Shown piece after piece: positions 8,643 through 18,416 of a stretch of 64,000 nucleotides of DNA (position 1 is its first letter; each line of letters begins with the position of its first letter). The notes under the pieces were generated by a model, which did no database searches, was not told where the DNA came from, and worked only from the letters and a program-made list of their open reading frames with translations. Position numbers and translations under genes: made by a program. Origin of the DNA: Alphaproteobacteria bacterium (GTDB lineage Bacteria; Pseudomonadota; Alphaproteobacteria; DSM-16000; Inquilinaceae); NCBI GenBank assembly GCA_028281925.1, contig JANQIX010000049.1, positions 62,001-126,000 of the forward strand. The letters are read 5' to 3'.

Positions 8643-9254
8643 ATGCAGTCGCTACTGGACACCATCCTCGCGACGTTCCCCCCAATCGAACTGGCCGCGG
8701 CGGTGGTCACACTCGCCTGTGTCTGGCTGACGATCCGCCAGAATCTGTGGTGTTGGCCTACGGGGATCGTGGGGGCAGCGATCTATGCGTACGTGTTCTT
8801 CGACGCGCGTCTCTTGTCCGACTCCGCCCTGCAGGTGATCTTCATCGGGCTTCAGCTCTATGGCTGGTATCACTGGCTCTATGGCGGCGGCGAGGGCCGC
8901 AACTCTCTGCCCGTTACGGACTTGGCGCCGAAAGAGGCGGCCCTCTGGGTGGTCGTGGTCGCGCTGGGCACGGCCGCCGTGGGGCGCTTGACGACCGAGA
9001 TGGGGGCTGCACTGCCCTATTGGGACGCCTTCACGACCGTGCTCAGCCTGGTCGCCCAGTTCCTGATGGCCCGCAAGATCGTCCAGGCCTTCCTGATGTG
9101 GATGACCGTGGACGTTGTTGCCATCGGCATTTACGCGGCGAAGGATCTGTATGTCACCGCAGGCCTTTATGCCGTCTTTCTCTGCCTGGCCACGCTCGGC
9201 TTCCTCCGCTGGCGGCGGGCGCGGCGCGCGCAGGAAAGACTGGCGATTGCCTGA
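8643..9254 (+). CDS. pnuC: PnuC-type nicotinamide riboside transporter
   Basis: This 203-residue multi-spanning inner-membrane protein takes up nicotinamide riboside for NAD salvage. It has about seven hydrophobic segments and PnuC-like features: the tandem aromatic stretch LWCWPTGIVGAAIYAYVFF near residue 35 and GLQLYGWYHWLYG near 75. The next gene encodes the matching kinase/adenylyltransferase and begins at or just before the pnuC stop, so uptake and phosphorylation are coupled in one operon. Confidence 0.92.
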   Translation: MQSLLDTILATFPPIELAAAVVTLACVWLTIRQNLWCWPTGIVGAAIYAYVFFDARLLSDSALQVIFIGLQLYGWYHWLYGGGEGRNSLPVTDLAPKEAALWVVVVALGTAAVGRLTTEMGAALPYWDAFTTVLSLVAQFLMARKIVQAFLMWMTVDVVAIGIYAAKDLYVTAGLYAVFLCLATLGFLRWRRARRAQERLAIA

Positions 9255-10269
9255 GGTGCCGCGTAAGGCCCGCGGCCTGGTGCTGGGCAAGTTCATGCCT
9301 CCGCACCAGGGGCACAGATACCTGATCGACTTCGCGCGTGGCTTTGTGCGCGATGTGACGGTTGTCGTCGGCACGCTGCCGTCGGAACCCATCCCCGGGG
9401 CGCTCAGGCACCGCTGGATGCGCGATGCGTTCCCCGGCCTCGAGATACTGCATCTGCCGGAAGACCTGCCGCAGGCGCCCAGCGGGCCGCAGGATGACGC
9501 GTTCTGGGAACTATGGCGCACGGCATTGCTGAGGCTGTGTCCAGACGCCGATTTCGTGTTCGCGTCCGAGACCTACGGGCCGCGTCTTGCGACCGAACTG
9601 GGCGCCCAATTCGTGCCGGTCAATCTGTCTCGCGACCTGGTTCCCATTTCGGCCTCGGCCATCCGGACCGACCCGATGGCGCATTGGGACCGTATCCTGC
9701 CCGAGGCGCGGCCCTATTTCCTGAAGCGGGTGGCGATCGTCGGTCCGGAAAGCGCCGGCAAGACCACGCTGACCGCACGCATGGCCCTTCAATACGCGAC
9801 CGTCCATATGTCGGAATTCGCGCGCGACTATCTCGCCTTCCACAACGATCGATGCGGCGACATCGGTCAGATCGAGACGATCGCACGGGGGCAGGCGGCC
9901 GGTGAGGACGCCTTGGCGCGTCAGGCGAGGCGGGTTCTTTTCACCGACACCGACACGCTGACGACCGTCTTGTGGTCCGAGCACTTCTTCGGGCACTGCC
10001 CGGACTGGATCGTCGACCTTGCCGACCGGCGGTCCCACGACCTCTATCTCGTGGCCGATGTTGCGCCCTTCGTGGCCGATGCCCAGCGTTTTCATCCCGA
10101 AGAGGCGACGCGGCAACGCTTCCGCGACCGCCTGATCCACGAACTTGACCGTCGCGGTCGGCGCTGGACGCTGCTCAGCGGCAGTTGGGACCAGCGGTGG
10201 GCCGAAGCCTGCCAAGCGGTCGACAGGCTGCTTGCCGACCCTTCGCCGCCGGTACGCCGCGGCGATTGA
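9247..10269 (+). CDS. nadR: NadR-like bifunctional NMN adenylyltransferase and ribosylnicotinamide kinase
   Basis: The enzyme converts nicotinamide riboside to NMN and then to NAD. The N-terminal nucleotidyltransferase domain has GKFMPPHQGH (the HxGH site) and a following SxSxIR block (ISASAIR); the C-terminal kinase has the P-loop GPESAGKTT. The N-terminal helix-turn-helix of enterobacterial NadR is absent, so it is probably not a repressor. No ATG fits. The TTG at 9247, eight bases after AGGAAAG and overlapping the pnuC stop, is preferred; GTG at 9256 is the alternative. Confidence 0.9.
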   Translation: MPEVPRKARGLVLGKFMPPHQGHRYLIDFARGFVRDVTVVVGTLPSEPIPGALRHRWMRDAFPGLEILHLPEDLPQAPSGPQDDAFWELWRTALLRLCPDADFVFASETYGPRLATELGAQFVPVNLSRDLVPISASAIRTDPMAHWDRILPEARPYFLKRVAIVGPESAGKTTLTARMALQYATVHMSEFARDYLAFHNDRCGDIGQIETIARGQAAGEDALARQARRVLFTDTDTLTTVLWSEHFFGHCPDWIVDLADRRSHDLYLVADVAPFVADAQRFHPEEATRQRFRDRLIHELDRRGRRWTLLSGSWDQRWAEACQAVDRLLADPSPPVRRGD

Positions 10270-10346: not shown

Positions 10347-11927
10347 ATGTTTCGCTCGCGCTTTCAGAAAATCTCGCAATCGCCCACCAACCCTAAGGCC
10401 GAACCCGCCACGCGGCGCTTCGATGTGGCGAACCTTTATGAAGGCCCCGCATCCCGGCCCGATGCGGCCTCTGCCGCATCCCTGGGGCTCGATGAGAAGC
10501 TGCGCCAAGCCTATTTCTGGATCGTCAACACCGCCATCATCAGCCCGTTCTACGACATCGAGTACGAAACCGGGCCGTCATCGCGATTCAGCTTCGGCGA
10601 CAGTGCGGTCCGCGTGACGTTGCCGTCCGGCCAGAGCTATTCCAGTTTCGTCCTGCTGCCGCTATTGAACCTGGTGGTGCGCAAGCGCTGTCTGATCGTC
10701 GGTGGTCCGGGGCGAGGGAAGACGGCCACCGCCATCCTGATGGGCGTCCTTGCCGGATACGGCTTGCGCGACATCAAGCGCGCGATCCAGCACGGTCAGC
10801 CGCAGATGACGATCGCCGATCTCTTGGGCAACCCGCTGCCGGCCGACCTGGTCGGTGCGGAAAGCATGGACAACATCCGCATCGCCTGGCGCAAGTGGCT
10901 GGGCATGCGGGTCAAGGTGATCGACGAGTACAATCGCATCCCCACGCGCACCCAGTCCGCGCTGCTGACGGTGATGGCCGACAACTATGCCGAGCTGCTG
11001 GACCAGATCTACGAATGCCCGGAAGCGGCCTGGTACCTGACGGCCAACGACGATGCCGGCGGCGGCACCTATCCGGTGATCGAGGCGCTGCAAGACCGCA
11101 TCGACATCGTGGTCCGCGCGCTGCACTTCAACACGCGCTTCGTTGGCGACCTGCTGCAGCGCATCGAGCACAAGTTCCGCCCGGAAACCATGGTGCCGCC
11201 GGAGATCATCTTCAACGAGGGGGAACTGGACCGTATCTCCGACCAGATTCTGGAGGTGGTGATCCCGCCGCAGATCCGCCGGCGGGTGGAGTTCTTCTGC
11301 TCGCATTTCGAGTTCTGCGAACCGGCGGCGACGCAGCTGGAATACATGACCAAGGATACGGTCAAGCTGTCCGGCATCGACTTCCACCAAGTAGTCCGCC
11401 AGGACACGGGCAAGGACAAGCTGAAGGATCTCGGCAGCCAGACGCGCAACGGCGTGTCGGTGCGCACGCTGTTGACCCTGTTCGTCTTCGTCAAGGCGAT
11501 GGCCTATTTCCGCGGCGCGCGCGAGGCGACCTTGGACGATGTCCGCCAGCTGTTGCCGTTCGTGCTGCACGACCGACTAGACCCGCATCTGTCGTCACCC
11601 TTCTTCGACCAGCCGGAGCACCAGGCGCTGCGGGTCGACCGGCTGAGTTGGCTTCGGCACCTGTTCGACCTGTCTTGCGGAGAGTACGACCGTCTGGACC
11701 TGGATCGCGACGACCCCGTCGCCCGTCTGGAGCGGGAGTTCGAGCGCGGGCTCGACGGTCTGAGCGAACGTCAGGCCCGTGCGCAGCTGGTTGAGATCGA
11801 ACGCGTGCTGGCGGATTGGAGCAGCTCGCGCAAGATCTACGGCCACATCTTCGATGATGTGCTGAAGCTGAAATATCTCCATCAACGGTACACGAACTAT
11901 CTCAGGTGGCGGCAGTGGCAGGGATAG
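10347..11927 (+). CDS. MoxR-type AAA+ ATPase, first gene of the MoxR-vWA cassette
   Basis: A 526-residue cytoplasmic AAA+ protein. Walker A GGPGRGKT is at 119-126, Walker B VIDE at 191-194, and a sensor 1 Asn (N234) lies in WYLTAND, followed by the MoxR-like EALQDRID. MoxR ATPases act as chaperones that remodel partners, typically with a vWA-domain protein, and one lies two genes downstream. The first 100 residues and the C-terminal 200 have no domain I can name. The stop overlaps the start of the next gene, implying coupled translation. Confidence 0.85.
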   Translation: MFRSRFQKISQSPTNPKAEPATRRFDVANLYEGPASRPDAASAASLGLDEKLRQAYFWIVNTAIISPFYDIEYETGPSSRFSFGDSAVRVTLPSGQSYSSFVLLPLLNLVVRKRCLIVGGPGRGKTATAILMGVLAGYGLRDIKRAIQHGQPQMTIADLLGNPLPADLVGAESMDNIRIAWRKWLGMRVKVIDEYNRIPTRTQSALLTVMADNYAELLDQIYECPEAAWYLTANDDAGGGTYPVIEALQDRIDIVVRALHFNTRFVGDLLQRIEHKFRPETMVPPEIIFNEGELDRISDQILEVVIPPQIRRRVEFFCSHFEFCEPAATQLEYMTKDTVKLSGIDFHQVVRQDTGKDKLKDLGSQTRNGVSVRTLLTLFVFVKAMAYFRGAREATLDDVRQLLPFVLHDRLDPHLSSPFFDQPEHQALRVDRLSWLRHLFDLSCGEYDRLDLDRDDPVARLEREFERGLDGLSERQARAQLVEIERVLADWSSSRKIYGHIFDDVLKLKYLHQRYTNYLRWRQWQG

Positions 11928-12928
11928 GCCAGCCACCGATCACCGGAGTCTTCGCAGAGCGGCTTCGCGAGCGGCGGCAGGAGTATAACGACCGCTTCAC
12001 CGCCATGCGCATGGCGGCACCGTCGCTGTCGGGCGAGGCCGTGCTGGCCCACCTGGCGGAAACGGTCGCCCCCATCATTGATGCTGTTGCGGCCGCGGCG
12101 CCGGAGAAGGCCGGATCGGTCTGCGACGCGCTCTACGCGGTGTCGCTCGAGCTGATGGCGCGCGATCTGCTCGGCCCGCGATGCCGGATCGCCGCCGTCA
12201 ACGACGCCTGGCAAACCCTGCTGGGCGGCTTGCCGCACGTAACGGCCGAGGCCGCGGATCCCTTTGCCCGCACCGTCACCAATGCGGTGCACGCCGTTGA
12301 AAGCCATGCATCGGCCGACGCTGCAGCGTGGATGACCCGATTGTCGGAGGTCCGGCACCTGGTCGATGGCCTGGAGACCTTTCGGAAGTGCGGGATCGTC
12401 GCGGCGTGGCAGGCCGGTATGGCGCAGTATCGCGACGCGGGCCTGGACGCCGCAGCCACACTGAGCGAAGCGACGGTGGCAACGCTGATGCAGGTTCCGC
12501 AGCCGGCAGTGGCATCGCTCATCGCCGCCTTGCGGCGCGACCCTTGGGCCGAGCCGCAGGCACAAGCGGCCCGTGCCCCCAGATGCGTGGCAGCCGTCGG
12601 GGGCTTCCGCGGGTTTGGCGGCCCGTTCCTGACACCGCCCCTGGCCGTGACGCATGGCCGGCGGCTCGTCGTCTTCGATGCGGAGAGGGCGTGGGAGCTG
12701 ATTGCGGACCGATTCGGCAATACGCTCTTGCCCGTCCCGCTTGACGACTACGACATCGACGTGCCCGGCGATCGGCCTCAGATCGATCAGAAGGGCCATG
12801 TCCGCTTCGGCCGCGCCAGGTCGCACCTGCCGGACCTTGCCGGCGCCAGCAGTCAGGCCAGCGACGGAACGACACTGGCCGTCACGCTGCCGCTATCGCA
12901 CTTCGTGCATCTGGTGGCCGTCGCATGA
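11915..12928 (+). CDS. Unknown protein of the MoxR-vWA cassette
   Basis: About 337 residues, without membrane segments or signal peptide. Alanine-rich helical sequence fills the first 230 residues; a distinct C-terminal part contains a glycine/aromatic block (GGFRGFGGPFLTPP, near 230), a histidine-containing strand and an aspartate-rich loop (DDYDIDVPGD). No enzymatic motif is evident. It overlaps the MoxR gene stop and ends 4 bp inside the vWA gene (start 12925), so it is surely part of the same operon. GTG 11915 follows AGGTGG by five bases; GTG 11906 is an alternative. It may be the variable third partner of the MoxR/vWA pair. Confidence 0.75.
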   Translation: MAGIGQPPITGVFAERLRERRQEYNDRFTAMRMAAPSLSGEAVLAHLAETVAPIIDAVAAAAPEKAGSVCDALYAVSLELMARDLLGPRCRIAAVNDAWQTLLGGLPHVTAEAADPFARTVTNAVHAVESHASADAAAWMTRLSEVRHLVDGLETFRKCGIVAAWQAGMAQYRDAGLDAAATLSEATVATLMQVPQPAVASLIAALRRDPWAEPQAQAARAPRCVAAVGGFRGFGGPFLTPPLAVTHGRRLVVFDAERAWELIADRFGNTLLPVPLDDYDIDVPGDRPQIDQKGHVRFGRARSHLPDLAGASSQASDGTTLAVTLPLSHFVHLVAVA

Positions 12929-14724
12929 CCGCGGCTGACGCTCCGGGCGCGGGCGATGTGCCGGATTCGCGCGCTCTGCTGGCTAAATGGCAGGACGCCT
13001 GGCCGAAGGCGCTGGCGGCCTGGAGCCGGTTCACGAAGCTGAGCCATCCGCGCTGGTGCTTGAGCGAGGCGGACGAACAGGAGCATGGCCTAAGCGGCAG
13101 CTTCGCCATGATCCGGCTGGACGACCACGCCGTGGTGATCAGCCTGCGCCAGATCGCCCAGCAGGGGCTGACCAAATTCGCGCCGGAGATCCTCGCCCAC
13201 GAGATCGGTCACCATGTCTATGCGCCCGGCGACCTGACGGACCATGCACGCATGCTGGCGCGGATGCGGGCCGCACTGCCGGACCGGGAAGAGGATGCGG
13301 GCATGGTCGGCAACCTTTACACCGACCTGCTGATCAACGATCGGCTGCAGCGCGTGGCGGAGCTCAGAATCGCCGAGGTGTATGCAACCCTGTCCCGCGC
13401 CTGGCGGGGGAGCGCGGGGCATCTCTGGTCGTTCTATATGCGGATCTACGAGGTGCTGTGGCGCCTGAAGCCGGGTACGTTCGTCAGTCTGAAGGACGAC
13501 GCTCTGTTCGAGCACGATGCCCAACTGGGCGCCAAGCTGATCCGCGTCTATCGCCGGGACTGGCTGGCCGGCGCGGCCAAGTTCGCGGCCCTCTGCTATC
13601 CCTATCTCGCGAAGGACAAGTCGACGGCGCTGCGTCGCGTTCTGGTGCCGTTGCTGGATGCGGAACGGCCGACTGCCGGCACCATCCCGTCCGGTCTGAC
13701 GGAACTGGAGGCGGACGAGATCGGGAACGTGCTGCACCCACGGGAAGACCCGGCCCTCGGCGGCTATGCCGATGACGGCGCTGAGGACGGAGGCGACGGG
13801 ACGGCGGAATCGCAAGGCGGCAAAGGGCCGAACGATGAGTACCGTGGGCCCGCCGACTATCGCGACCTGATGCAGTCGATCGGCGTCACCCTGTCGGACG
13901 ACGACCTTACAATCCGGTATTACCGCGAGCGGGCGCTGCCCCATATCGTGCCGTTCCCCGAACAGGTTCTGGACGTGACGGCGGAGCCGTTGCCCGAGGG
14001 CCTCGAAGACTGGGAGTTCGGCGCCCCGATTGAGGAGATCGACTGGCTGGAAAGTGTGATCGCCAGCCCACAGGTCATCCCGGGCCTGACCACCCGACGG
14101 CGCGTCTACGGGCAGGTGGAGGGCAGCGAGCGTGACAGCGTGCCGGTCGATCTGTTCCTTGGCGTCGACTGTTCAGGGTCCATGATGAACCCCAAGAGAG
14201 GCGTCTCATTTCCCGTGTTGGGCGGTGCCATCATCGCGCTCTCGGCCTTGCGGGCCGGCGCCAAGGTGATGGTCACGCTGTCCGGCGAACCGGGACGGCA
14301 TTCATCGACCGACGGCTTCGTGGAGGATGAGACGGCCATTCTCGGGGCGCTGACCGGCTATCATGGAACGGGATATACCTTCGCCATCCCCCGCCTGGTG
14401 GACGCCTTCCCGGAAGACACCGAACGCGACCACCCGGCACACATCCTGATCGTCACCGACAGCGACATCTACCGCATGCTGGAAGGCAAAGACGGCAAGG
14501 TGGGCGACAAGTCGGGCTGGCAGGTTGCGCTGGACTGCCTGCAGCGCGCGGCCGGCGGTGGCACGATGCTGCTGCATGCGAACGCTAAAGCGCATCAGGA
14601 CAAGGTGGAGCGGTTGCGCGGGCAGGGGTGGGCGGTCCACCACATCACGCGCTGGGAAGATGTGGTGGCCTTCGCCGCCCGTTTTGCCGAAGCGGCTTAT
14701 GCCAACCCGCGGGGCCGCCGGTGA
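12925..14724 (+). CDS. Zincin-like metallopeptidase plus vWA-domain protein
   Basis: This 599-residue protein combines two recognisable modules. Near the N-terminus AHEIGHHVY (HExxH, residues 92-96) is a zinc-metallopeptidase signature. From about residue 405 a vWA domain follows, with the MIDAS motif DxSxS at D415, S417 and S419, a threonine in the GTGYT loop and a downstream IVTDSD strand that completes metal coordination. An acidic, glycine-rich linker lies near 280-310. vWA proteins are the usual partners of MoxR ATPases. It starts 4 bp before the preceding stop, and the next gene starts at its stop (GTGA). Confidence 0.85.
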   Translation: MTAADAPGAGDVPDSRALLAKWQDAWPKALAAWSRFTKLSHPRWCLSEADEQEHGLSGSFAMIRLDDHAVVISLRQIAQQGLTKFAPEILAHEIGHHVYAPGDLTDHARMLARMRAALPDREEDAGMVGNLYTDLLINDRLQRVAELRIAEVYATLSRAWRGSAGHLWSFYMRIYEVLWRLKPGTFVSLKDDALFEHDAQLGAKLIRVYRRDWLAGAAKFAALCYPYLAKDKSTALRRVLVPLLDAERPTAGTIPSGLTELEADEIGNVLHPREDPALGGYADDGAEDGGDGTAESQGGKGPNDEYRGPADYRDLMQSIGVTLSDDDLTIRYYRERALPHIVPFPEQVLDVTAEPLPEGLEDWEFGAPIEEIDWLESVIASPQVIPGLTTRRRVYGQVEGSERDSVPVDLFLGVDCSGSMMNPKRGVSFPVLGGAIIALSALRAGAKVMVTLSGEPGRHSSTDGFVEDETAILGALTGYHGTGYTFAIPRLVDAFPEDTERDHPAHILIVTDSDIYRMLEGKDGKVGDKSGWQVALDCLQRAAGGGTMLLHANAKAHQDKVERLRGQGWAVHHITRWEDVVAFAARFAEAAYANPRGRR

Positions 14725-15308
14725 CACTTGCCAGCCCAGACCTGCACGGCTTGCTGAGGCGCCTGAGCGATTGCCCGGCCGACTTCCTGCTGCCGCCCAG
14801 AGTCGGGGGTGCCGGCACGGTGCATGTGGCCGCGGTGGTTTCCGACGTGCTTGCCAGCATGGGTGGCGACAGGCTGTCGGATCTGGCCGCCAAGACCTTC
14901 TCTCACCCCGCGCGACAGATGCCGGACGGATGGCTGAACGTCGTGCTGGTGGCCTGCTGGCTGCTGGGCGACCCATGGTTCCGTGGCCGGACCTCCCTTG
15001 CGCCGAAAGCATCGATTCTTCTTGCGTCCCACCTGCAGCCCTTGGCGCGCCTGGTCAAGCCGGATCAGTTCGTTGCCGATCCCGACCGGCGCGAAGAACT
15101 CGCCCGGTTCTGCCTGGCACGCCTCGACCTGTGCCCGCTTGGCGAAAAGGAAGCCGCGGCGCGCGACCGGCTGGCCGCCATCAGCAGTGTGGAGCGGGAA
15201 CGGGTAGCCCGCGAAGCCGCGGCGGCGGAACGCAGGGCCCGCGAGGTACGCAAGGCCATGGCAGCCAAGCGCGCCCGCGAGGCGGCGTCAGTGTACGGTC
15301 GTGAATAG
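14721..15308 (+). CDS. Unknown cassette protein with a charged C-terminal helix
   Basis: A 195-residue protein starting at GTG 14721, which overlaps the vWA gene stop (GTGA). Residues 1-140 look globular, with a WLNVVLVACWLLGDPWF segment near 74-90 that is hydrophobic but too short and aromatic for a sure membrane helix. The last 50 residues are almost wholly Arg, Ala, Glu and Lys, predicting a long positively charged helix or coiled coil that could bind nucleic acid or a partner. I do not recognise a family. Only 24 bp separate it from the ligase-like gene. Confidence 0.7.
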   Translation: MTLASPDLHGLLRRLSDCPADFLLPPRVGGAGTVHVAAVVSDVLASMGGDRLSDLAAKTFSHPARQMPDGWLNVVLVACWLLGDPWFRGRTSLAPKASILLASHLQPLARLVKPDQFVADPDRREELARFCLARLDLCPLGEKEAAARDRLAAISSVERERVAREAAAAERRAREVRKAMAAKRAREAASVYGRE

Positions 15309-15332
15309 CCACCAGCGACTGAGGCATGGGCG

Positions 15333-16733
15333 ATGAGCAGCCGCACACCCGTGTTGACCGACGACGACCGATTTCCGCTGATCCCGGAAGAACGACGGCA
15401 ACTGCTGACCGATCTGCGTGAGCACCCGCATGCGCCCATCTTCAACTACGGCTGCGGCGACCGGCTCACCGCAACAGGGCTGGAAGAGGTCCGCCGCTAT
15501 GAAAGCGCGCTGGCGGTAGAGCCGAGGTTCTGGCAGCCCGGCAAGCCACCGCCCTGGGTTGAAGCTTTTGCCGAGCGCTGCCTGCGCACCGTCCCGTTCT
15601 ATCGTGGGCGTGGCGGTGACCCGGGGGATCTGACGAGCATTCCGCCCTGCGACCGCACCGATCTGGAGCGCGGGCCGGAGGCCTTCGTGCCGGACGACCA
15701 GCCGCTGGACGACATCATGGTCTACGACACGTCGGGGACCGTAGGGCCGGTGGTGCGCGTTCCGTCCCACCCTGTGGCTGCGGCCAAGTATCTGCCTGTA
15801 CTGCGATCGATCCTGAAGCGCCGTGGCGTCACATTGGAGGGCGGGCCCGACCGTGTGGCAATCGCGCTGGTCTGCGCCCAGGCCTACACGCTGACCTATG
15901 CCACTTTGTCCGCCTATCTGGGCGGTGCGGCGCATGTGAAGATCAACCTCAATCCGCGCGATTGGCATGATCCCGATGACAGGATGCGGTTCCTCGACGG
16001 CTGCGATCCGGAAATCGTCACCGGCGACCCTTACGCCTTCGCCGAATTGGCGAAGTTGCCGCTGGCCATCCGGCCAAAGGCACTGGTGTCGACCGCCATG
16101 GCACTGACGGACGGGCTGCGGAGCGACCTGGGGCACCGATTCGGCTGCCCGGTCTTGGATGTCTATTCGCTGACAGAGGCGCGCATGGTCGCCGTCAGGG
16201 AAGGGGACGTCCATGTGGTTGCCGCGCACGACATGTATGTCGAGATCCTCGACGACGACGGCGCACCATTGCCGGCGGGAGAGCGGGGGGAAATCACGCT
16301 GACCTGCCCGCGCAACCCATTCCAGCCGCTCTTGCGCTATCGTACCGGCGACTTCGCGGCCCTTGAGGCGCGGGGCGAGGACATGACGTTGGTCGGGCTG
16401 GAGGGTCGCCGGCCGGTTGCCCTGTGCGACGATGCGGGCCGGCCGGTCAACACCATCGACGTGACGCATGTGCTGCGCCGCTTCTCGCTGCCCGTTTTTC
16501 GTCTCAGTCAGGCGCGCGACGGCGCATTGACCCTGGAGGTCCCGCAGGACGCGGAAGCCGACCCGGTAGCTCTGCGGGCGGCCATTCTGTCCGTCTTCGG
16601 TGCCCGCCAGACACTTTCGATCCGGCCGCTCGACCCCGCGGCGGGGCTGACCGGCAAAGTACAAGCCTATGTGAGCGAGCTTGACGATATCAGTGCGCTG
16701 CCCAAATCGCAGACATCGCCAGAGAGACGTTAA
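15333..16733 (+). CDS. PaaK-like adenylate-forming (ANL superfamily) enzyme of the cassette
   Basis: A 466-residue member of the phenylacetate-CoA ligase-like branch of the ANL superfamily, which activates a carboxylate as an acyl-adenylate. Conserved motifs are present: phosphate-binding TSGTVGP (133-139), YSLTE (278-282), YRTGD (336-340) and a C-terminal GK (K442) where the catalytic lysine is expected, so it is probably active. The substrate is unknown. Its position as last gene of the MoxR-vWA operon, away from any phenylacetate genes, suggests a specialised role such as activating a small molecule or a protein modifier. Confidence 0.8.
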   Translation: MSSRTPVLTDDDRFPLIPEERRQLLTDLREHPHAPIFNYGCGDRLTATGLEEVRRYESALAVEPRFWQPGKPPPWVEAFAERCLRTVPFYRGRGGDPGDLTSIPPCDRTDLERGPEAFVPDDQPLDDIMVYDTSGTVGPVVRVPSHPVAAAKYLPVLRSILKRRGVTLEGGPDRVAIALVCAQAYTLTYATLSAYLGGAAHVKINLNPRDWHDPDDRMRFLDGCDPEIVTGDPYAFAELAKLPLAIRPKALVSTAMALTDGLRSDLGHRFGCPVLDVYSLTEARMVAVREGDVHVVAAHDMYVEILDDDGAPLPAGERGEITLTCPRNPFQPLLRYRTGDFAALEARGEDMTLVGLEGRRPVALCDDAGRPVNTIDVTHVLRRFSLPVFRLSQARDGALTLEVPQDAEADPVALRAAILSVFGARQTLSIRPLDPAAGLTGKVQAYVSELDDISALPKSQTSPERR

Positions 16734-17423: not shown

Positions 17424-18416
17424 ATGCGCGGTGAGGTTCCCGAACGGCTTGGATACCTGCTGGTCCCGCAATTCTCGATGATGTCCTTCACAGCATCGAT
17501 TGAGGCGTATCGCGCAGCCAACAGGGTCAGCGGCCGACAGCTCTATGATTGGCGGCTTTTCACTGTCGACGGGCAGCCGGTCGAAGGGGGCAACGGCATC
17601 GCCATCATGCCCCACAGCAAGATCAACACCACGGAAAAGCTGGACACGATCATCGTCTGCTCGGGGCTGGATCCGCAGAACTACCTCTTTCCGGAGGCGA
17701 TTGGGTGGCTGCGTCATTGGTCGAGCCGCGGGGCGGTGCTGGGTGGCCTCTGCAACGGCACATACCTGCTGGCGCAGGCTGGCCTCATAAGCAACTACCG
17801 GTGCACCGTGCACTGGGAAAACCTGCCAGGCTTTCTCGAGACCTATCCCGATCTGGACGTTTCGATGAAAGTCTTTGAGGTGGAGCGCAACCGCTTCACC
17901 TGCGCCGGTGGTACAGCGGCGCTGGACATGACGCTGCATCTGATCGGCGAGCAGCATGGCGCGTCGATGAAAGCGGCCGTGTCAGAGCAGTTCGTTCACA
18001 CCATGGTGCGGGAAGGGGCAGCGCCGCAGCGCATGGACCTGCGCCAGCGGATTGGCGTCAGCCATCCCAAGCTGTTGGCCGCCATCCGAGAGATCGAAGG
18101 CCATCTGGATGAGCCGCTGTCGCGCAGGGACCTGGCCGATCGGGTCGGGCTGTCGACACGCCAGCTTGAGCGCCTGTTCCGCGTCTATATGGGCCAGACG
18201 CCGACCCGATACTATCTGGAGGCCCGCCTGCGCCACGCAAGGCAGCTGCTGGCACAGACGTCGCTGTCCATCCTTGAGGTCGCGCTGGCGTCGGGCTTCG
18301 CCTCGGCATCACATTTCGCCAAGAGCTATCGGGCGCTGTTCGGCCATCCGCCGCGCCATGAACGGGCGCTTCCGACGCCCGTGGCCGTGCAGGCCGGCCG
18401 GCGCGCTGCGACCTGA
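17424..18416 (+). CDS. GlxA-type AraC-family transcriptional regulator
   Basis: The 330-residue protein has an N-terminal DJ-1/PfpI-like domain (residues 8-180; nucleophile-elbow-like GGLCNGTYLLAQAGL near 110) and a C-terminal AraC helix-turn-helix pair (about 225-315, including DLADRVGLSTRQLERLFR and ALASGFASASHFAKSYRALFG). Such GlxA-type regulators often sense amino acids or quaternary amines such as arginine or glycine betaine. No metabolic target gene adjoins it, so the ligand cannot be inferred. It converges on the Crp/Fnr gene. Confidence 0.85.
   Translation: MRGEVPERLGYLLVPQFSMMSFTASIEAYRAANRVSGRQLYDWRLFTVDGQPVEGGNGIAIMPHSKINTTEKLDTIIVCSGLDPQNYLFPEAIGWLRHWSSRGAVLGGLCNGTYLLAQAGLISNYRCTVHWENLPGFLETYPDLDVSMKVFEVERNRFTCAGGTAALDMTLHLIGEQHGASMKAAVSEQFVHTMVREGAAPQRMDLRQRIGVSHPKLLAAIREIEGHLDEPLSRRDLADRVGLSTRQLERLFRVYMGQTPTRYYLEARLRHARQLLAQTSLSILEVALASGFASASHFAKSYRALFGHPPRHERALPTPVAVQAGRRAAT

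Follow-up and report, generated by a model that had tools for sequence, protein, structure and literature searches.

A widespread gene cassette joining MoxR and zincin-vWA proteins to an ANL ligase, with linked PnuC and NadR genes, in an Inquilinaceae bacterium

A stretch of 64,000 nucleotides from an alphaproteobacterium of the family Inquilinaceae (GenBank assembly GCA_028281925.1, contig JANQIX010000049.1, positions 62,001 to 126,000; hereafter the window, to which all positions without a locus number refer) carries five genes that form one real, widespread and previously undescribed unit. Its composition is new for a MoxR-vWA system: a MoxR-family AAA+ ATPase and a protein joining a zincin part to a vWA domain are encoded together with two proteins named here p340 and p195 and with a PaaK-like ANL adenylate-forming ligase. 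The arrangement given in a preliminary description of the window, five genes on one strand that overlap or nearly touch, was confirmed in its coordinates and overlaps. The genes pnuC and nadR belong to the unit as well, and the cassette is thus larger than the interval 10347-16733 first assigned to it; the five-gene core of that assignment stood, and the two nicotinamide adenine dinucleotide (NAD) genes and an optional radical SAM gene, all outside the interval, had been missed. The features were as follows.

8643-9254, + strand: pnuC, nicotinamide riboside/nicotinamide mononucleotide (NMN) transporter (PF04973, 1.7e-54, 184.9 against a cut-off of 27.3; TIGR01528, 106.3 against 42.45)
9256-10269, + strand: nadR, NMN adenylyltransferase and ribosylnicotinamide kinase (AAA_28, 1.8e-29; solved NadR 8x7f, 2.5e-30)
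10347-11927, + strand: moxR, core gene 1, MoxR-family AAA+ ATPase of 526 residues (Pfam AAA_3, 1.9e-8; AAA_lid_2, 1.6e-7)
11906-12928, + strand: p340, core gene 2, 340 residues, GTG start, overlapping moxR by 22 bases
12925-14724, + strand: zincin-vWA, core gene 3, 599 residues, ATGA overlap with p340
13198-13212, + strand: HEIGH metal-binding motif of the zincin part (H92, E93 and H96 in 58 of 58 sequences)
14167-14181, + strand: DCSGS, first element of the metal ion-dependent adhesion site (MIDAS) of the vWA domain (D415, S417 and S419 in 58 of 58)
14721-15308, + strand: p195, core gene 4, 195 residues, GTG start, GTGA overlap with zincin-vWA
15300-15305, + strand: codons of the free C-terminal Arg-Glu of p195, a conserved chain end
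15333-16733, + strand: PaaK-like ANL adenylate-forming ligase, core gene 5, 466 residues, after a 24-base gap from p195 (Pfam AMP-binding, 3.4e-8)

Both AAA_3 and AAA_lid_2 scored above the Pfam cut-off, which identifies moxR as MoxR-class AAA+. The proteins p340, zincin-vWA and p195 matched no model in Pfam or NCBIfam, and a search of the core proteins against PHROGs gave matches at chance level only. Promoter and terminator signals were at or below the level of shuffled sequence.

Relatives were collected by a contig scan with a four-sequence MoxR profile, which returned 254 confirmed relatives; the best 80 of the 254 were kept for analysis, and the main set consisted of 48 non-redundant loci (denoted by L numbers) with more than 3 kilobases of flank on each side. 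The 80 kept MoxR sequences were 64-98% identical over their length and spanned more than 10 phyla, as taken from record titles, which may be wrong for metagenome bins (the MoxR of L022, 98% identical, is titled Anaerolineae). The titles named Chloroflexota, Myxococcota, Planctomycetota, Spirochaetota, Verrucomicrobiota, Acidobacteriota, Bacteroidota, Thermodesulfobacteriota, Nitrospinota, Gemmatimonadota, Cyanobacteriota, Pseudomonadota and others, and the order moxR-p340-vWA-p195-ANL recurred across phyla among these 80 records. Culturable, harmless carriers of the gene set include Flavobacterium saccharophilum DSM 1811, Undibacterium pigrum DSM 19792 and Paucimonas lemoignei DSM 7445. All five core genes were present together in 42 of the 48 loci (moxR 48, p340 48, vWA 46, p195 42, ligase 42). 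Of the same 48 loci, 32 had NadR, 23 PnuC, 33 either or both and 12 a radical SAM gene. Spacing between core neighbours had a median of -4 bases (47-79 pairs each), with genes in the relatives called by a simple codon-bias script and start positions approximate. Partner distances co-varied with MoxR distances, NadR and PnuC included, with r from 0.63 (NadR) to 0.88 (ligase), and the observed r was reached in 0 of 1000 permutations. The recurrence of the order across phyla and the co-variation of partner and MoxR distances show that these genes are not together by chance. In L030 a proline racemase gene (L030:12814-13866) sits between p340 and zincin-vWA.

A conserved, undescribed cassette had been proposed from the window, and a lack of co-occurrence elsewhere had been named beforehand as the outcome that would refute it. 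The genes do co-occur, in more than 10 phyla, and no paper with this gene composition was found in the literature searched, most subscription papers and all preprints lying outside it. Closer to the source, a search of 289 genomes of the class found the zincin-vWA protein in the source genome alone, and within the family it was confined to the source genus (17 genomes searched). A narrow local oddity was ruled out by the wide spread in the contig scan and in a phylum scan with MoxR, which returned two genomes of another class (MoxR 64-67% identical) with the five genes complete and in identical order and strand. No relative of the zincin-vWA protein was found in the phage or plasmid records searched, and none of MoxR in the plasmid records or viral contigs searched; a phage, plasmid or viral origin was rejected on these searches.

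The linked PnuC matched solved PnuC 4qtn (1.7e-11). NadR aligned over its whole length with 8x7f and kept the catalytic motifs of both domains; its score of 213.7 did not reach the strict equivalog cut-off of NCBIfam (341). Judged by motifs and by the match to solved structures, both source proteins look functional. NadR/PnuC lay on the same strand upstream of the core in 7 loci and, with NadR, downstream in 24, and on the reversed strand downstream in 4 and upstream in 2-3; the four arrangements indicate that the linkage arose more than once. Where the pair lay upstream of moxR it was tightly operonic (median 20 bases). In three loci (L030, L032 and L064) NadR was reduced to its N-terminal NMN adenylyltransferase (nucleotidyltransferase) domain and had lost the kinase domain, pointing to formation of an NAD-type dinucleotide as the constant activity. 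In the source genome PnuC was present as a single copy and NadR as a single clear copy, together with NadE and a NadD-like gene. NadA, NadC and nicotinate phosphoribosyltransferase (NAPRTase) were not detected in this genome (rated 100% complete, 122 contigs), and control genomes gave matches. Riboside import through the cassette operon may therefore be the main NAD route of the source organism, a reading that depends on absence from a 122-contig assembly; the NAD gene set likewise suggests riboside dependence.

Other genes join or replace the NAD module. Radical SAM genes were found in further loci beyond the 12 counted above. In seven loci without NadR or PnuC, a gene for a TCAD9-domain fusion stands directly upstream of moxR, and in one Limisphaerales bin a run of other genes takes this position.

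L024:6186-8486: TCAD9 fusion
L034:7561-9933: TCAD9 fusion
L051:3087-4949: TCAD9 fusion
L054:8135-9958: TCAD9 fusion
L056:7336-9666: TCAD9 fusion
L049:7103-9769: TCAD9 fusion
L066:7642-9944: TCAD9 fusion
L044:4462-9958 (Limisphaerales bin): three ADP-ribosylglycohydrolase genes and a NUDIX gene in a run directly upstream of moxR

The fusions comprise an isochorismatase-like domain, in which by reading the catalytic cysteine is lost, an APH/RIO-like kinase loop (HGDLNxxN) and mostly a dual-specificity phosphatase. TCAD9 and NadR/PnuC were mutually exclusive (NadR/PnuC in 0 of 7 loci with the fusion against 33 of 41 others; Fisher 9e-5, four of the seven being close relatives). One ADP-ribosylglycohydrolase gene follows NadR in L099, and a NUDIX gene lies upstream in L047. 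An aldehyde ferredoxin oxidoreductase gene (L049:5222-7099) stands upstream of the TCAD9 fusion of that locus, and AFOR_N matched 2 of 118 neighbour proteins scanned.

The active-site residues of the zincin-vWA protein were invariant or nearly so in 58 aligned sequences, in agreement with the HExxH motif and intact MIDAS first read from the window. HExxH and the following N130xxxD134xxxN138 were kept in 58 of 58, as was D512 of the MIDAS along with the residues listed above; T462 was kept in 56 of 58. By sequence the protein gave no Pfam vWA match and a weak vWA-type match to 4hql (0.037). The vWA domain formed the C-terminal part in all 58 proteins, with the HExxH in the N-terminal region. 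The join of the two parts, initially taken for an unusual addition, is invariant in the whole family and no oddity of the source genome. A DUF2201_N metallopeptidase-vWA protein, suggested by the N..D...N after HExxH, was rejected; PF13203 missed the gene even at E 10.

The key ligase motifs named in the preliminary description also held, with G138, E282, Y336, D340 and R359 kept in 52 of 52 sequences. The ligase has the AMP-binding fold and motifs A3, A5, A7 and A8 of the PaaK-like ANL superfamily, and its profile found PaaK structures nearest among solved structures (9s3l, 3.8e-24; 4r1l, 5.5e-21). It falls outside the DVU_1553 family (NF045666), with 66.9 bits against a curated cut-off of 300.

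The AlphaFold2 model of p195 was all-helical (mean predicted local distance difference test, pLDDT, 96.3), with a C-terminal helix of 39 residues (156-194). The highly charged helix reported earlier corresponds to this helix; that it ends in a conserved free Arg-Glu could not be seen from the window alone. No convincing match in the PDB was found by Foldseek or VIA-align, an absence that is no proof of a new fold. At the chain end the terminal Glu was conserved in 95% and the Arg in 91% of 55 sequences, and the last residue was Glu or Asp in 57 of 58; in the exception, L043, the conserved tail is missing as well. In the other cassette proteins the best-conserved terminal position reached at most 53%. 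That Arg-Glu is a by-product of an ATGA/GTGA overlap with the ligase gene was rejected, 23 of 28 non-overlapping p195 genes still ending in Arg-Glu. Matches of a p195 profile were confined to cassette genomes (2 of 229 genomes in the class of genome G377). The p195 and ligase genes were adjacent almost without exception, and in L027, L030, L032 and L033 they were duplicated as a pair beside a single moxR-p340-vWA, both p195 copies ending in Arg-Glu. The second pair in these four loci is located downstream of a radical SAM gene. In L080 vWA and p195 form one reading frame. The p340 model (pLDDT 95.3) consisted of a helical N-terminal part (14-211) and a beta domain (225-339). The beta domain gave a partial match to a WD40 propeller, with Z 8.7 across 116 residues, a likeness that may reflect no more than a common arrangement.

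From the composition and linkage described above, we tentatively infer that the cassette is an NAD-linked MoxR-vWA remodelling machine with p195 and the ANL ligase as its client or output module. The idea put forward from the window, that the core is driven by ATP and works on a target through its MoxR-vWA pair, is the natural reading. The near-constant adjacency of their genes, and the duplication of the two together, are the grounds for treating p195 and the ligase as one module. In the proposed mechanism the last helix of p195 would offer the Glu at its end (Arg-Glu-COOH) as a ligand to the metal in the vWA MIDAS. With p340 as scaffold, the MoxR ring would spend ATP on remodelling this p195-ligase module or setting it free, and the zincin part might trim or gate the module. 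The conserved Arg-Glu end, the single vWA-p195 frame of L080 and the retained catalytic residues of ligase, zincin part and MIDAS speak for this model. This docking is proposed because a MIDAS takes Glu or Asp of its ligand and MoxR ATPases act through such a partner: the MIDAS of Rea1 takes its sixth ligand from a Glu/Asp of its target Rsa4/Ytm1 (PMC6624252), that of CbbO likewise takes a Glu/Asp of rubisco (PMC4660213), and in NorQD a MoxR ATPase acting through its vWA partner drives metal insertion (PMC13036017). The ligase would adenylate a carboxylate, the product being passed on or, where a radical SAM enzyme is present, changed further, and PnuC and NadR would supply an NAD-type (di)nucleotide that the chemistry uses, senses or yields. 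The most likely outcome would be a matured cofactor or a modified protein or metabolite rather than a toxin of the classical type.

Several observations weigh against this proposal. The p195-ANL pair is missing in 6 of 48 loci, no NadR or PnuC lies nearby in 15 of 48, and no more than 41 of 52 ligase sequences retain the C-terminal A10 lysine. The fusion in L080 is a single case from a metagenome bin. The precedent MIDAS ligands are side chains inside folded domains and not C-termini, and the terminal Arg-Glu of p195 could serve another contact. No client enzyme is encoded near the cassette.

With the described MoxR-vWA chaperone pairs (RavA-ViaA, NorQ-NorD, CbbQ-CbbO; also Rea1/midasin) the cassette shares a MoxR-class AAA+ protein beside a vWA protein with intact MIDAS. 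It differs from them in the N-terminal HExxH part of its vWA protein, in p340, p195 and the ANL ligase as near-constant partners and in the lack of a client gene nearby. Its ligase shares fold and core motifs with PaaK-like ligases (phenylacetate-coenzyme A ligase, DVU_1553 family) but scores far below every NCBIfam cut-off and is paired with p195. The intact transporter and bifunctional NadR are those of NadR and PnuC riboside salvage, here tied to a MoxR cassette and with the NadR kinase domain lost in three loci.

Four ternary conflict systems already described (VMAP, iSTAND, FtsH and beta-propeller; PMC7159879) are likewise built around a MoxR-vWA pair and, like the cassette, add a third conserved protein to it. 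Membership of this class, raised in the preliminary description, was not borne out. The cassette has no recognised VMAP, iSTAND or FtsH (p340 and p195 have no match in Pfam, which may not model every such component), the vWA domain is itself C-terminal in 58 proteins, with no swapped effectors beyond it, the gene composition is fixed rather than variable, and an ANL ligase and NAD genes are added; NadR, PnuC and coenzyme A ligases do not appear in that paper (PMC7159879). Of the definitions of known conflict and defence systems that were applied, the cassette fits none. A conflict function against phage or stress is a less likely alternative to the remodelling machine. In it p340 would sense, MoxR-vWA transmit and the ligase act with p195 as effector, while NAD would be replenished or exploited through the NAD genes as infection proceeds. 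Besides the shared core, it would agree with the patchy spread over phyla and with a MoxR tree that mixes them, an Acidobacteria row falling inside Betaproteobacteria and the source sequence beside Bacteroidota. The seven loci with a TCAD9 fusion in place of NadR add a further likeness, TCAD9 having been named as associated with vWA-MoxR-VMAP in a CRISPR survey (PMC10910872). The ADP-ribosylglycohydrolase genes of L044 and L099 and the NUDIX gene of L044 resemble predicted ADP-ribose-removing systems centred on ADP-ribosylglycohydrolase, with phosphatases, NUDIX factors and vWA chaperones (Iyer and co-workers, PMC9503650); the theme of NAD and ADP-ribose is shared, but no such gene lies beside the source cassette or most others, and MoxR and PnuC are not mentioned there. 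A protein reading as a tyrosine integrase is encoded upstream of moxR in L019. On the other side, the five core proteins had no match in PADLOC-DB 2.0.0 at E up to 1, and a scan of 118 direct neighbours gave scattered matches only, some of which (viperin, mad2) are probably cross-matches of radical SAM and other common families; a defence island was rejected on these neighbours. Unlike fast-evolving effectors, the components show strong conservation, with MoxR 64-73% identical between phyla, the searches of phage records, plasmid records and viral contigs did not find the cassette, and the linked PnuC-NadR looks like the sole NAD supply of the source genome, which would be odd for a dispensable defence gene.

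It is unlikely that the cassette builds an NAD-like cofactor or other small metabolite, with the ligase and radical SAM enzyme making an acyl or pyridine part, NadR joining adenosine monophosphate to it, PnuC moving a precursor and MoxR-zincin-vWA inserting the product into an enzyme. The PnuC family transports other vitamins too. NMN adenylyltransferase as the constant NAD activity and the recurrence of radical SAM genes would fit such a pathway, as would the insertion of metals by MoxR-vWA pairs (PMC13036017). Most loci lack a radical SAM gene, however, no conserved carrier protein or amidating enzyme was found, and NadR keeps ordinary NMN adenylyltransferase motifs and its full-length alignment with true NadR.

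A device for NAD supply or homeostasis, in which the core genes control PnuC/NadR activity or turnover or release NAD precursors, is improbable: the pair may be the only NAD entry of the source genome and is tightly operonic with moxR where upstream, but a third of the loci have neither gene, many bacteria use PnuC-NadR without this cassette, and riboside salvage needs no ligase or AAA+ machine. An equally long shot is that p195 is a tagged carrier, the MIDAS recognising its free Glu or the ANL ligase activating its carboxylate in a Pup-like conjugation or charging reaction that needs an NAD-type nucleotide and is gated by the MoxR-zincin machine.

Downstream of the cassette, 17424-18416 encodes an AraC-type regulator close to GbdR, a regulator of choline metabolism, which is probably unrelated.

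Few AAA+ machines are as poorly understood as MoxR-vWA pairs. The cassette is a widespread example, found over more than 10 phyla, that joins such a pair to an adenylate-forming enzyme, two uncharacterised protein families and NAD metabolism. If p195 were a tagged carrier, the cassette would modify proteins or assemble cofactors in a novel way. With its conserved free Arg-Glu C-terminus set against a MIDAS, the cassette allows target choice by such machines to be tested sharply, and the gene set is present in several culturable soil and water bacteria.

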